DNA of 64,000 nt, from assembly GCF_000317675.1 (NCBI RefSeq), contig NC_019776.1, forward strand, positions 3,968,001 through 4,032,000. The letters are read 5' to 3'. Positions 45,571 to 48,901 of this stretch are shown here, one piece after another. Position 1 is the first letter of the stretch. Each line of letters begins with the position of its first letter. The notes beneath the pieces were generated by a model, which saw only the letters and a list, made by a program, of their open reading frames with translations, ran no database searches and was not told where the DNA came from. A program made the position numbers and the translations under genes. The DNA is from Cyanobacterium aponinum PCC 10605 (GTDB lineage Bacteria; Cyanobacteriota; Cyanobacteriia; Cyanobacteriales; Cyanobacteriaceae).

Positions 45571-45700
45571 TAACCTCAATTCAGGATAAATTTTTATAGA
45601 AAGTGATTGAGAAAAGGGCAAAAGCTGACAGGGAGACAATGAAACTGCAATGAGGGTAGGTTTTAGGTTTCAGGTTTCAGGTTGCAGGTTTCAAAAAAAA
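45571..45700. repeat. partial MITE-like end and heptamer block
   Basis: TAACCTCAATTCAGGATAAA at 45571 resembles one end of the family; no second end was found before the next gene. At 45630 the block GGGAGACAATGAAACTGCAA begins, repeated from 30883, with the following heptamers (CAGGTTTCAGGTTGCAGG). About 90 bases later the sigma-like gene starts. Confidence 0.6.
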
Positions 45701-45788
45701 TCTCAAAAGAATCAAATTAGTGAAAAAATTTTTGCTGAAATTGCATAAATCGGAAAAAAGACACTGATAAGTAGATAAGGAAACCCTC

Positions 45789-47267
45789 ATGGTGAAAAAC
45801 CATTGGAAATCTACTTTTATGAAAATGCAAAAACGCACTAATCTTGTTATGCAGTTTTCTTCCTTTCTCTGTTTGAAAGAAGAATCATCTTCTCTGATTA
45901 CCTACTGGAAAATTACTCCTGAATTAGAGCAAAATATGAGGCAATTATTGGATCAGCAAGAAATTTTAGCTGAAGAAGATGACCTTATTGCCCAAGAATT
46001 TTTGGAGTGGTTGCGAGATAACCAAGATAATTTAAAGAAAAAGCATTTAATCGCTTATTTGCAAGAATCTTGTTTCTTTGCCACAAAAAAAGTTTATCAA
46101 CGATTTAAAAATTGTTGGAATATATTTACTTGGCAGGATTACTTCCAATGGGCTAATTTGCTTTTGGCATCTCCCACAAAATTATTAGCTAAATACAATC
46201 AAAGTCTTCGGTATAAATTAACTACCTATGCTCGAAGCAAAATAGAATCCCAATTAATAGATCGGGCATATCAATATATGGGATGGGAAAGAGCTTCTGA
46301 TTGGGGGTTGTTAAGACAATTAAAATCTGGGACTCGGAAAAAATGTTTACAGATAATAGGAGGTTTAAAAGATAGTGATTTAGAAAAATACCTATTGGTG
46401 TGGGAATGTTTTAATGTAGTTTATTCATCTAAAACTATTAAAAAGAATCAAAAACTACCACCTCCTTCTGCTAATCATTTTTTAAAAATAACTCAAGAGT
46501 ACAATTTTATTGTTAAAAATAAAGGAGCTAATTTACCTAATATTAATCAAGAAGAATGTAATTTAATTATTAGTAATTGTATCGAATTTGCTCGTCAATA
46601 TTGTAGTCCTAAAATTTTAAATAGTGGAGAATACACAGAAAATTTAGTTGATCAAGTTAATGTAAATGTTCGAGAAGAAAAGGAACTTCAAAAAGAAGAA
46701 TATAATCAGGTGGATACCATATTGACTAATGCCTTTTATGAATTAGATTTAACCCAGAAAATTTTATTTGAATTATGGAAAGGTTTACAGTTAACTCAAA
46801 CAGAGATAGCTGAAATTATGGGGGTTAATTATGGTGAGTTTGTCAGAGAACAATATCAAGTTACCCGTCAAATTAATTCTACCCGACAAGAATTATTGGA
46901 AAAATTGGTCAGAGAAATTTTAGCTGATTCTCAAATTACTATAACTAAGCAAAAATTTAAAGAGTTAAAAAATCCTTTAGATCAATGGTTACAAGAATAT
47001 TGTAAAGAGGTTTTATCTCAAAAAATTACAGAAATTTATCAATTATTGTCTGATAATGAAAAGTCAACAATTATGAACAATTTTCAAGAAAAAAATTTTA
47101 CTGATAGTGATACATTGAACCATGATTTAAACCCTTTAGCGAAAAATTTGAAAACAAAATTAATAGAAGATTACCAATTGTTTTTCCCAGAAACTAATCA
47201 CATTAATCTTTGTTTTGTCCATTTAGTAGAGGATTGGTTTATTAATAATTATCCTAATTTTATTTAA
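45789..47267 (+). CDS. sigma-70-like protein (cyanobacterial, DUF1822-associated)
   Basis: A 492-residue protein. The segment LTTYARSKIESQLIDRAYQY resembles sigma region 2/3 and LTQTEIAEIMGVNYGEFVRE has the helix-turn-helix pattern of region 4.2, but the classic region 2.3-2.4 signature of full sigma factors is missing. I recall a cyanobacterial family of this size annotated as sigma-70-like and encoded beside DUF1822, as here. It could be a specialised sigma factor or a DNA-binding protein that lost core binding. Start at MVKNHWKS is assumed. Confidence 0.6.
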   Translation: MVKNHWKSTFMKMQKRTNLVMQFSSFLCLKEESSSLITYWKITPELEQNMRQLLDQQEILAEEDDLIAQEFLEWLRDNQDNLKKKHLIAYLQESCFFATKKVYQRFKNCWNIFTWQDYFQWANLLLASPTKLLAKYNQSLRYKLTTYARSKIESQLIDRAYQYMGWERASDWGLLRQLKSGTRKKCLQIIGGLKDSDLEKYLLVWECFNVVYSSKTIKKNQKLPPPSANHFLKITQEYNFIVKNKGANLPNINQEECNLIISNCIEFARQYCSPKILNSGEYTENLVDQVNVNVREEKELQKEEYNQVDTILTNAFYELDLTQKILFELWKGLQLTQTEIAEIMGVNYGEFVREQYQVTRQINSTRQELLEKLVREILADSQITITKQKFKELKNPLDQWLQEYCKEVLSQKITEIYQLLSDNEKSTIMNNFQEKNFTDSDTLNHDLNPLAKNLKTKLIEDYQLFFPETNHINLCFVHLVEDWFINNYPNFI

Positions 47268-47319
47268 TAGTTTTTTTACTTTTGCAATGATTTTTACCAA
47301 TATAAATTCAATAAATATC

Positions 47320-48723
47320 ATGTCTTTAGATCTATTTACTGCTTTTAACTCTGAAGATTTGTGGCTAAAATTTTCTGACAAAGAATATGATATAGCCATG
47401 GAAAAAGCCAAAAATTTTGCATCTTTAGCACAGCAACATCAGGCTTTAATCAATTTTCTTGCTAGTAATTGTCTGATTAAATGGTTAAACATGACCTACG
47501 GTGATTTGATCCGTCAAGTTAATTTTGAGTTTGAAGAAAAAGATTTATTTAGTATTTGGCAATTTGTTAATGGAACACCGCTTATTATTAATAATCTTTC
47601 ACGTCGTCTAGTTGTAATACCTGAAGAATGTGAAGATTTGAGTGAATTTAATATCCCTCAAGAATGGTTAGATATTCCTCAACTTAGAGGAGATTATTTT
47701 TTACCAGTACAAGTTAATTTAGAGACAGGTTGGTTAAGATTTTATGGTTTTACAACCTATGAATACATAAAAAAATATAGCTATTATAATCGTTATTTTG
47801 CTTACTATATTTTACCTGAACATTTTTTAGATGATGATCTTAACCTAATATTTCTTTTCGAAAAATATCAATTATTTAATCATGTTGAATATCAGGCTTT
47901 ACCACAATTTTCTAGTGTGGAAAAAAGACAATTTATGGAACAATTAAATAATATTGAGGCTTCAAGAGTTCGTCATCATTTGAATTTTGTTCAATGGGCG
48001 GCTTTATTTGCAGATAAATCTTGTCGTTTATCTCTTTATAAGAAATATCAACCAATTAGTCTAGGTTCTTGGTTAGAGAATAATTTTTATCAGGCTTATA
48101 GTCAAGGATGGCAAAATTTGACTGACTTGATGGATAGCTTAAATTTTATTTCCTCTTCTCCTTCTGTTAGTAGTAACGGAATTGTAATGCGTTCTGGGAA
48201 TGTTAATTTAGAATATATTTATCAAATAAATGATGAGAAGCAGTTGAAGGTTGCGGCACAAAGATTAAGTGTTTTACCGACTAATAGTGTGCATAAAAAT
48301 CAAGTTTTACAAGCTCTAAATTATATTATGAGTCGCTCCCATGATGATGAAACAAGATGGCACGCCGCCGAGGGAATTTGGCGTTTAGAACCGAATAATC
48401 CTAATGCAGGTTTATGGTGTGGAAAACGTTTAAATTTAGGTTTGGAAATGGGGGATTTATCTTTGGCTTTAGTGATAGGAGTATTGCCGAAATCTGATAG
48501 TCAAAATAGTATCTTTTTCCGTCTTTATCCTACTAATAATCATTTATTACCAGCTAATTTGAAAGTACAAATTATGGATGAGGAAACTAAAGTGTTTAAA
48601 CAATTAACTTCCCGAGAAGGCGATCGCATCTTACAATATAAATTCTGGGGTAATAAGGGAGAGTTTTTCTGGATACAAATGAGTTATCACTCTACCCAAC
48701 TTAGTGAAGCCTTTATTATTTAA
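47320..48723 (+). CDS. DUF1822 family protein
   Basis: A 467-residue soluble protein, started at MSLDLFTAFNSEDLW (47320); the ATG at 47287 would add 11 residues. It matches the cyanobacteria-specific DUF1822 family: HAAEGIWRLEPNNPNAGLWCGKRLNLGL and VIGVLPK are landmarks. It has a structured N-terminal alpha/beta part and a C-terminal beta-rich, ligand-binding-looking half. Its gene is 52 bases after the sigma-like gene. The family usually co-occurs with sigma-like and CHASE2-type genes; the latter is absent here. Function unknown. Confidence 0.8.
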   Translation: MSLDLFTAFNSEDLWLKFSDKEYDIAMEKAKNFASLAQQHQALINFLASNCLIKWLNMTYGDLIRQVNFEFEEKDLFSIWQFVNGTPLIINNLSRRLVVIPEECEDLSEFNIPQEWLDIPQLRGDYFLPVQVNLETGWLRFYGFTTYEYIKKYSYYNRYFAYYILPEHFLDDDLNLIFLFEKYQLFNHVEYQALPQFSSVEKRQFMEQLNNIEASRVRHHLNFVQWAALFADKSCRLSLYKKYQPISLGSWLENNFYQAYSQGWQNLTDLMDSLNFISSSPSVSSNGIVMRSGNVNLEYIYQINDEKQLKVAAQRLSVLPTNSVHKNQVLQALNYIMSRSHDDETRWHAAEGIWRLEPNNPNAGLWCGKRLNLGLEMGDLSLALVIGVLPKSDSQNSIFFRLYPTNNHLLPANLKVQIMDEETKVFKQLTSREGDRILQYKFWGNKGEFFWIQMSYHSTQLSEAFII

Positions 48724-48770
48724 ACGTTAAGGGTTTTTATGGTTTGGGGTATTAGGAAAGAGGTGTCAGG

Positions 48771-48793
48771 TATCAGGTTGCAGGTGTCAGGTT
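48771..48793. repeat. short heptamer array (CAGGTAT/CAGGTTG/CAGGTGT)
   Basis: Three to four units following the DUF1822 gene, with no MITE-like terminal repeats. Similar isolated arrays are at 20004, 52066 and 55982. Confidence 0.6.
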
Positions 48794-48901
48794 TAGGGAG
48801 TAATGAGTAATGAGTAACGAGTAACGAGTAATTATCAACTATTCACTATTCACTATTCACTATTTACCTTTGCCCCTTTCTCTTTTAACTGCATTGAATA
48901 C

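Follow-up and report, generated by a model that had tools for sequence, protein, structure and literature searches.

What does a sigma-like protein do beside a DUF1822 protein, and is such a pair complete in itself? The question is raised by two adjacent genes in a 64,000-nucleotide stretch of the Cyanobacterium aponinum PCC 10605 genome (NC_019776.1, positions 3,968,001 to 4,032,000, forward strand; here called the window, its genome being G000 in the comparison sets). A first-pass annotation had described them as a two-gene module. The pair is real, but that description is incomplete because a third component, caspase-like by its sequence, is encoded in trans, elsewhere in the window genome. 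There is about an even chance that the three form a switch, in which DUF1822 restrains the sigma factor until it is cut by the caspase, and genes carrying a shared motif are then turned on. The linkage of the two genes, their co-occurrence with the caspase-like gene, its His/Cys dyad, a conserved arginine in the DUF1822 linker and a directional promoter-like motif were all found by computation.

The sigma and DUF1822 gene pair

The features of the locus are as follows (class A homologues are described below).

45743..45773, + strand: promoter-like bipartite motif GCATAAAT-N15-GATAAGTA, 5' of the sigma gene, perfect match
45743-45750 and 45766-45773, + strand: the two boxes of the motif
45789..47267, + strand: divergent sigma-70-like factor, 492 aa (TIGR02937, class A homologues, fold match)
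45828..46283, + strand: sigma domain 2-like part, about residues 14-165 (VIA-align to 5h6x_B, 6n4c_F and 3ugp_A)
46740..46835, + strand: region-4-like helix-turn-helix, residues 318-349 (PF08281 E 0.12; the TIGR02937 stretch reaches residue 366)
47320..48723, + strand: DUF1822 protein, 467 aa (PF08852 E 1.1e-63)
47359..47883, + strand: DUF1822 N-terminal domain, residues 14-188, PD-(D/E)XK-like fold (model and structure superposition)
48190..48192, + strand: codon of linker Arg291 (MR-SG), where the caspase is predicted to cut (alignment of 134 DUF1822 sequences)

The two open reading frames (ORFs; 45789-47267 and 47320-48723, same strand) and their spacing agree with the first-pass annotation. 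The DUF1822 ATG at 47320 is 52 bases past the sigma stop, or 19 bases if the alternative upstream ATG at 47287 is used. The sigma gene may start at ATG 45819 rather than 45789, because several close homologues begin MKMQKR. Short repeats of caggttgcaggtttcaggtt type were seen by eye on both flanks of the pair (window 45660-45700 and 48760-48800).

Searching 60 related genomes with the protein yielded 53 sigma relatives, spread over 32 genomes. For 49 of these, a same-strand DUF1822 gene follows at no more than 1.3 kb; the remaining four are one natural fusion and three relatives with no adjacent DUF1822. In a scan of named genomes, 454 places were found and 80 kept, and DUF1822 follows the sigma relative in 76 of these (gap -102 to 635 bases, median 59). 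The four misses are contig ends, with 0, 32, 184 and 438 bases left. The recurrence of the pairing in cyanobacteria, stated at first pass and set beforehand as a check, is therefore well founded. In the fusion (G035, L274:6562-8478, the same as L030:112-2028), a sigma-like N-terminus and a DUF1822 C-terminal part make up one protein of 638 aa, and the gene is directly followed by a 558-aa EACC2-CHAT gene. Control of the sigma factor by DUF1822, as proposed at first pass, is made more credible by the existence of this natural fusion, and is plausible.

Neighbours were also counted the other way, for 150 listed DUF1822 matches, the features scored being a sigma gene of this family and, within 3 kb downstream, a listed EACC2-CHAT gene. 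Among these matches, 17 have both, 32 have sigma only and 70 have EACC2-CHAT only. Five loci of the last kind were viewed (L086-L090), and four have a short ORF upstream (218, 218, 279 and 229 aa). That of L088 has a weak Sigma70_r2 match (21.7 bits, cut-off 24), and the other three have no sigma family match. The CHAT protein of L086 ends in CHASE2. The first-pass statement that CHASE2 often accompanies the pair holds for such sister classes, where it is the tail of the EACC2-caspase, and was already in print (PMC8195603, in the part dealing with these systems).

Other arrangements were also met with. A 922-aa ORF, not a short sigma, stands 5' of DUF1822 and CHAT-CHASE2 at L087:7056-9824 (G048:C63). 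Sigma-like proteins of 612 and 550 aa, each with two region-4 matches, adjoin DUF1822 and CHAT-CHASE2 (L083:7113-8951 and L085:6734-8386). In L269 and L270, a class A-like sigma is found beside a 143-aa gene and a gene of ~830 aa, the latter encoding FHA-PAS-GGDEF-EAL in L269.

The sigma-like protein

The first product is, on the sequence comparisons, a far relative of the sigma-70 factors. NCBIfam TIGR02937 (sigma70-ECF) matches it at E 1.6e-7 (31.1 bits, cut-off 42.9), with an alignment that covers regions 2 and 4 (residues 88-366, model positions 3-158 of 165). The Pfam r4_2 family PF08281 gives E 0.12 (12.5 bits, cut-off 25.7), so that the region-4-like helix-turn-helix, reported at first pass as intact, is present but weak. 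Relatives from named genomes, mostly 385-416 aa in length and here called class A, are near-canonical sigmas. Two tested with TIGR02937 match over both regions at E 2e-30 and 7e-33 (105.5 and 113.5 bits), and Pfam places region 4 above and region 2 below its cut-off in five of five tested.

An AlphaFold2 model of the window protein (predicted local distance difference test, pLDDT, 75.8; model residue 1 is protein residue 13) retrieves sigma factors or sigma-holding complexes at the first eight Foldseek ranks, and all 50 rows shown by VIA-align are sigma factors or complexes holding one. For the N-terminal domain, superposition on the sigma domain 2 of 5h6x_B gives Z 8.2 and a root-mean-square deviation of 2.9 A with 96 aligned, a VIA-align Z of 7-9 being middling for helical folds. 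Domain-2 fragments generally superpose at 2.9-3.3 A over 95-103 residues, and the alignments of 5h6x_B, 6n4c_F and 3ugp_A span model residues 1-153. Domains 2 and 4 occur in the sigma-70 order in the TIGR02937 alignment and by VIA-align. Region 2 is, on profile and model, present though degenerate, since TIGR02937 spans both regions and the domain-2 fold superposes. The earlier wording, that there is no clear region 2, is accurate for Pfam and too strong in the light of TIGR02937, the class A homologues and the fold. The sigma similarity itself holds up in profiles (weakly for the window protein), homologues and fold.

The DUF1822 protein and its linker

The second product is certainly DUF1822, as first annotated (PF08852 E 1.1e-63, 216 bits, cut-off 25). 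Its N-terminal domain (about residues 11-250) was modelled at high confidence, with block pLDDT mostly 85-98, and residues ~267-433 at low confidence, probably due to alignment rows that differ there. Foldseek on the model gave nothing significant (E at least 0.43). With VIA-align, the top rows for the N-terminal domain are DpnI (4esj_B, Z 8.6, 3.7 A, 144 aligned), Eco15I (8q5o_B, Z 8.1, 2.8 A, 112 aligned), nuclease D212, NhoI, SPARDA complex chains and HincII, with PvuII and TSEN15 lower. The top structures are ones which we take to be PD-(D/E)XK-type folds. A Z of 7-8 can reflect a common arrangement, and the top rows agree on one superfamily. The modelled domain resembles a PD-(D/E)XK fold; no canonical PD-(D/E)XK motif was recognised by eye and no nuclease activity is claimed. 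The name 'TPR protein' was considered for DUF1822 and set aside, given that the window protein has no Pfam TPR match and its modelled N-terminal domain is PD-(D/E)XK-like.

We know of no established cleavage specificity for EACC2-CHAT enzymes. The linker was compared in 134 DUF1822 sequences of all classes, at least seven of which are second copies (the window's own included) and some of whose loci overlap. The column of Arg291 holds R in 126 and K in 6 of the 134. In 107 of the 132 basic cases S or G comes next, and the columns around it are poorly conserved. Block pLDDT is 27-31 over residues 281-310, as expected of a flexible linker; the alignment rows of the model differ there too. When the linkers were realigned, R reached 0.94 in one column, compared with 0.22, 0.72, 0.72, 0.15 and 0.14 in five shuffles. 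This means that the aligner accounts for part, not all, of the conservation. Prokaryotic orthocaspases are described, in the relevant part of PMC6426788, as having a His-Cys dyad and cleaving after positively charged residues, and Arg291 is a candidate caspase cut site.

A caspase-like partner encoded in trans

In G006 and G014, the orthologous pair is immediately followed by an EACC2-CHAT gene (454 and 462 aa, respectively). A profile built on the EACC2-CHAT portions of eight proteins was searched in the 60 genomes. The window-genome orthologue, L259 (468 aa, G000:C1:2935721-2936860), is ~1.08 Mb from the pair, and is 72% and 62% identical to the pair-linked copies of G014 and G006, respectively. 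Ten members from the family form one clade with support 100/100, in a tree that is poorly resolved overall (10 of 15 inner branches open). L259 has the caspase His and Cys in place (FFAGH, NSCDG), and both columns are invariant in eight aligned EACC2-CHAT proteins. Pfam finds CHAT as its sole significant match, and no CHASE2; by eye, its C-terminus has one hydrophobic stretch (an apparent transmembrane helix) and a Cys-rich tail. A tail of the type C.CPYD.D..G..CG..SAYSR......CY follows the hydrophobic stretch of the CHAT protein in L259, L265 and L075.

The window thus has the sigma gene beside DUF1822 that is typical of the EACC2-caspase/sigma/DUF1822 system. An EACC2-caspase gene adjoins the corresponding pairs of G006 and G014, and none adjoins the window pair. 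Among the matches listed, all three CHASE2 matches of the window genome lie outside the window, in keeping with the absence noted at first pass, as do the six CHAT matches (of seven) and the two EACC2-CHAT matches (of three) that are listed for it. CHAT-domain proteins number 2 to 36 per genome among the matches listed. The second EACC2-CHAT of the window genome (L268:3412-5880, G000:C1:4783-5880) has a macro domain, and its partner may be the second sigma-DUF1822 pair, which is found at G000:C1:1.343 Mb. PADLOC gave no match for the sigma, DUF1822 or CHAT protein.

Within the family of 15 genomes, and among the matches listed, the pair and the clade EACC2-CHAT are both present in ten (G000, G001, G004, G005, G006, G007, G008, G010, G012, G014) and both absent in five (G002, G003, G009, G011, G013). 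This 10/0/0/5 distribution has a Fisher p of 3.3e-4, although the genomes are related and the p values given here overstate independence. The split runs through genus g3, where G006 has pair and CHAT, and G003, G009, G011 and the incomplete G013 have neither. The two EACC2-CHATs of G002 are of other types, ~40% identical to the clade, whose members are at least ~61% identical to L259.

A promoter-like motif and its candidate regulon

The sigma orthologue is preceded by GCATAAAT-N15-GATAAGTA in ten of the ten family genomes having it, nine of them as such and G007 with 1 mismatch. The spacer is always 15 nt and its sequence varies; the two boxes are as far apart as in -35/-10 promoters. At up to 3 mismatches, 1.61 chance matches are expected per window, and the window match alone proves nothing. 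At up to 1 mismatch, the genomes with the system have 6 (G000), 10 (G001), 1 (G004), 9 (G005), 12 (G006), 1 (G007), 20 (G008), 10 (G010), 16 (G012) and 7 (G014) sites, and those without it 0 (G002), 0 (G003), 0 (G009), 1 (G011) and 0 (G013), a difference with a one-sided Mann-Whitney p of 0.0018. At up to 2 mismatches, counts of motif/reversed-pattern control are 24/9, 27/6, 4/1, 15/3, 21/2, 5/1, 31/5, 19/7, 30/3 and 20/0 in the same order for genomes with the system, and 3/4, 6/1, 8/2, 6/1 and 3/0 for those without. Columns outside the search pattern are conserved as well: C22 in 38, T23 in 42, T17 in 37 and T9 in 31 of 47 sites from five genomes (2 sites inside ORFs dropped).

There are 92 sites at up to 1 mismatch in the ten genomes, of which 64 were fetched (G004 and G007 left out) and 63 kept after merging a near-identical pair. 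Two of the 63 lie inside ORFs of at least 150 aa, against 2152 of 3000 random positions in the same loci. A start codon is found 15-60 nt downstream (of an ORF of at least 100 aa, or at least 60 aa if cut by the locus end) for 35 of 63 in the sense direction and 2 of 63 in the antisense direction, and for 377 of 3000 random positions.

Genes behind the motif encode, among the fetched sites, Hsp70-like proteins (4 genomes), a LeoBC-like GTPase (4 genomes; PADLOC E 2.7e-106), Tubulin_2 (4) and a dynamin-like GTPase (3). Those found in genome pairs are GrpE-like, TerD, TerB-like (Pfam match 23.2 bits, cut-off 24.4), a helix-turn-helix regulator and several others, mostly uncharacterised; pairs made up of G000 and G001, which are one genus, count for little. 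Single sites precede genes for kinases, a helicase, an AAA ATPase, a pentapeptide protein and others (Pfam). Of the ten genomes with the system, seven have an Hsp70-like orthologue (E <= 1e-100), against none of the five without it; in each of the seven, the motif precedes the start of the best copy by 28-39 nt, at 0 or 2 mismatches. Tubulin_2 genes occur in genomes both with and without the system. The motif is 28-29 nt before the chosen start, with 1 mismatch, in G001, G005, G006 and one frame-split G008 copy, and at the same place in G014 with 3 mismatches; it is absent before Tubulin_2 in the system-less G003 and G011 (best 6 and 5 mismatches). A stress or defence response is likely, because several predicted targets resemble genes of GTPase-tubulin-HSP70 conflict systems and of the Ter systems, which are stress systems.

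Close-set sites occur at G012:C71:52443-60028, G014:C1:3.742-3.747 Mb and G000:C1:3.117-3.120 Mb, many being of a second subtype that ends in GGATAAATA and is perhaps read by another sigma. An HTH-type regulator (~320 aa, WYL-like by eye) has the motif 111 nt (G010, L387) or 232 nt (G014, L400) upstream. No motif was seen in eight sequences upstream of the second sigma-DUF1822 pair. Upstream of the class A sigma genes, 20 of 78 sequences share a different dyad, AACAT-N13-TGTAG, where the best dyad in one shuffle reached 3; it sits in a promoter-like place and comes mostly from related Nostocales (e.g. L101, L107, L113, L129). Judging from this dyad, class A sigmas may have a promoter code of their own.

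A proposed three-component switch and its alternatives

In the proposed switch, which has three components, the pair would be the part that acts in the cytoplasm. DUF1822 would bind and hold the divergent sigma factor. The membrane-anchored EACC2-CHAT caspase-like protease, with one apparent transmembrane helix and a Cys-rich tail instead of CHASE2, would sense a signal and cut DUF1822 after linker Arg291. The freed sigma would take RNA polymerase to GCATAAAT-N13-CTGATAA(G/A/T)TA promoters, its own included, and activate genes of stress or defence with Hsp70-, GrpE-, GTPase-, tubulin- and TerD-like products. In its most specific form, in which an unlinked membrane caspase cuts a nuclease-fold DUF1822 after the conserved Arg and frees sigma for a dispersed chaperone-GTPase-tubulin-TerD defence regulon, the proposal is put forward tentatively, at somewhat short of an even chance.

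A number of observations count against the switch. Binding, inhibition, cleavage, promoter recognition and the signal are steps that we infer. The window sigma falls short of the curated sigma-70 profile cut-offs, its model has a predicted template modelling score of 0.49, and the best Foldseek E is 9e-3. MAFFT gathers R to as much as 72% in shuffled linkers. Three sigma relatives lack DUF1822 (L269, G004:C14; L270, G007:C101; L275, G040:C71), and 31 of the 150 DUF1822 matches listed have neither neighbour. The G007 pair is probably broken, judging by in-frame stops (one TGA in sigma; one TAG and one TAA in DUF1822), while its CHAT ORF is open. Of the genomes scored as lacking the system, G002 and G013 have a completeness of just 67% and 63% and carry DUF1822 of other kinds. 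Among the matches listed, G026 has a class A pair with the Arg kept and no EACC2-CHAT at E <= 1e-10, and G013, G036 and G056 have DUF1822 without a strong EACC2-CHAT. As to the motif, G004 and G007 have the sigma's own site only (up to 1 mismatch), the system-less G003, G009 and G011 show a slight excess over the control at up to 2 mismatches, a second Hsp70-like copy in G001 and a tubulin-like gene in G010 (best 7 mismatches) are without it, and it was not found 5' of the unlinked CHAT gene of G000, by eye or in the genome site list.

In a rival reading, DUF1822 would be a positive partner of the sigma factor, either a second subunit or a nuclease-fold DNA-binding helper, with cleavage activating or ending its help. 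The PD-(D/E)XK-like fold of the N-terminal domain and the natural fusion suit such a role, as do the 32 of 49 sigma-linked DUF1822 genes that, among the matches listed, have no listed CHAT within 3 kb. However, a conserved basic linker residue and a recurrent protease fit release better, and the corresponding protein of CASP, Csx30, is described as an inhibitor in the part of PMC10028731 that concerns it. A positive role is considered unlikely.

It is similarly improbable that the motif belongs to another sigma or regulator of the same distribution and that the window sigma is not its reader. In all 10 genomes that have the sigma gene, the motif stands before it, genus g3 divides into 12 sites in G006 against 0, 0, 1 and 0 in G003, G009, G011 and G013, and the second sigma-DUF1822 pair is without the motif in the eight upstream sequences. 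A different reader would account for the GGATAAATA subtype, close-set in G012 and G014, for the single 1-mismatch site in system-less G011, and for G004 and G007 having the system and no further site at up to 1 mismatch. At least seven family genomes do have a second sigma-DUF1822 pair.

The pair might also work without the caspase, the co-occurrence being shared history. The G026 pair and the same 32 of 49 DUF1822 genes are what such independence would produce, but the 10/0/0/5 distribution, including the split within genus g3, and the direct pair-CHAT linkage in G006 and G014 make it quite improbable. That the sigma-like protein has decayed, no longer binds RNA polymerase and is a DNA-binding adaptor or on its way out is very unlikely: the TIGR02937 match does weaken (E 7e-33 in class A, 1.6e-7 in the window, none in paralogue L072), and the G007 orthologue has its in-frame stop, but the protein is 94% and 53-57% identical to six relatives with no internal stops, the modelled domain 2 fold appears kept, and the promoter-like motif is conserved.

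Comparison with known systems

The sigma-DUF1822 pairing and its link to EACC2-caspases are already published. Kaur et al. (2021, PMC8195603), in the part on these systems, describe an ECF (extracytoplasmic function) sigma and DUF1822 beside EACC2-caspase proteins with a variable C-terminus (CHASE2, macro, STAND and others), and suggest the sigma factor as a possible carrier of the response. The 'CHAT only' loci match their arrangement, and the window pair shares its sigma and DUF1822. The window genome differs in that its caspase gene lies apart from the pair, and the protein has an apparent transmembrane helix and Cys-rich tail at its end. No cut site, promoter or targets are given in section 9 of that paper, which calls DUF1822 a TPR protein, where the modelled N-terminal domain here is PD-(D/E)XK-like. 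Elsewhere in the open-access full text retrieved, DUF1822 appears as annotation only.

The unlinked caspase partner, the candidate cut site, the promoter-like motif with its targets and the PD-(D/E)XK-like N-terminal domain are new here. For the unlinked arrangement, cut site, promoter and regulon, no earlier report was found in the open-access literature, most subscription journals lying outside the search. To our knowledge few CHAT-domain proteins have a known substrate, and the proposed switch offers one candidate, together with the place at which it is predicted to be cut, a promoter sequence and a set of putative targets.

The r4-only SigJ.1 family (Gevin 2024, PMC11119718, as far as its relevant part describes it; Nostoc loci named are alr7311, alr1376 and all3581) resembles five class A relatives, with region 4 above and region 2 below the Pfam cut-offs, and differs in that TIGR02937 aligns region 2 in the two class A proteins tested. 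As to a SigJ or SigI identity, the class A Pfam pattern is nearer the r4-only family than r2*r4_2, and a sigma census of two genomes was indecisive. The GTPase-tubulin-HSP70 conflict systems (Kaur et al. 2020, PMC7159879) comprise the same kinds of gene as several predicted targets; there, in the portion of that paper concerned, they are gene neighbourhoods, whereas here they are scattered genes under one motif.

Proteolysis of anti-sigma factors of the RseA/RsiW type likewise frees a sigma by means of a protease, as outlined in a part of PMC10028731, but with DegS/RseP-type proteases and membrane anti-sigmas, against a caspase-like enzyme and a nuclease-fold protein here. The functional parallel drawn is CASP/Craspase, where, according to the section of PMC10028731 on it, Csx29 (TPR-CHAT) cuts Csx30, the inhibitor of CASP-sigma. 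Both would combine a CHAT protease, a sigma and, if the switch is read correctly, a sigma-restraining protein. CASP is activated by Cas7-11 and target RNA. One class A sigma has a weak NF041236 match (26.9 bits, cut-off 100); the parallel is drawn for function only, and the window system is not classed as a member. If the switch is real, it would place a natural CHAT protease controlling a sigma factor, possibly with an outside signal, beside the CRISPR-linked CASP.

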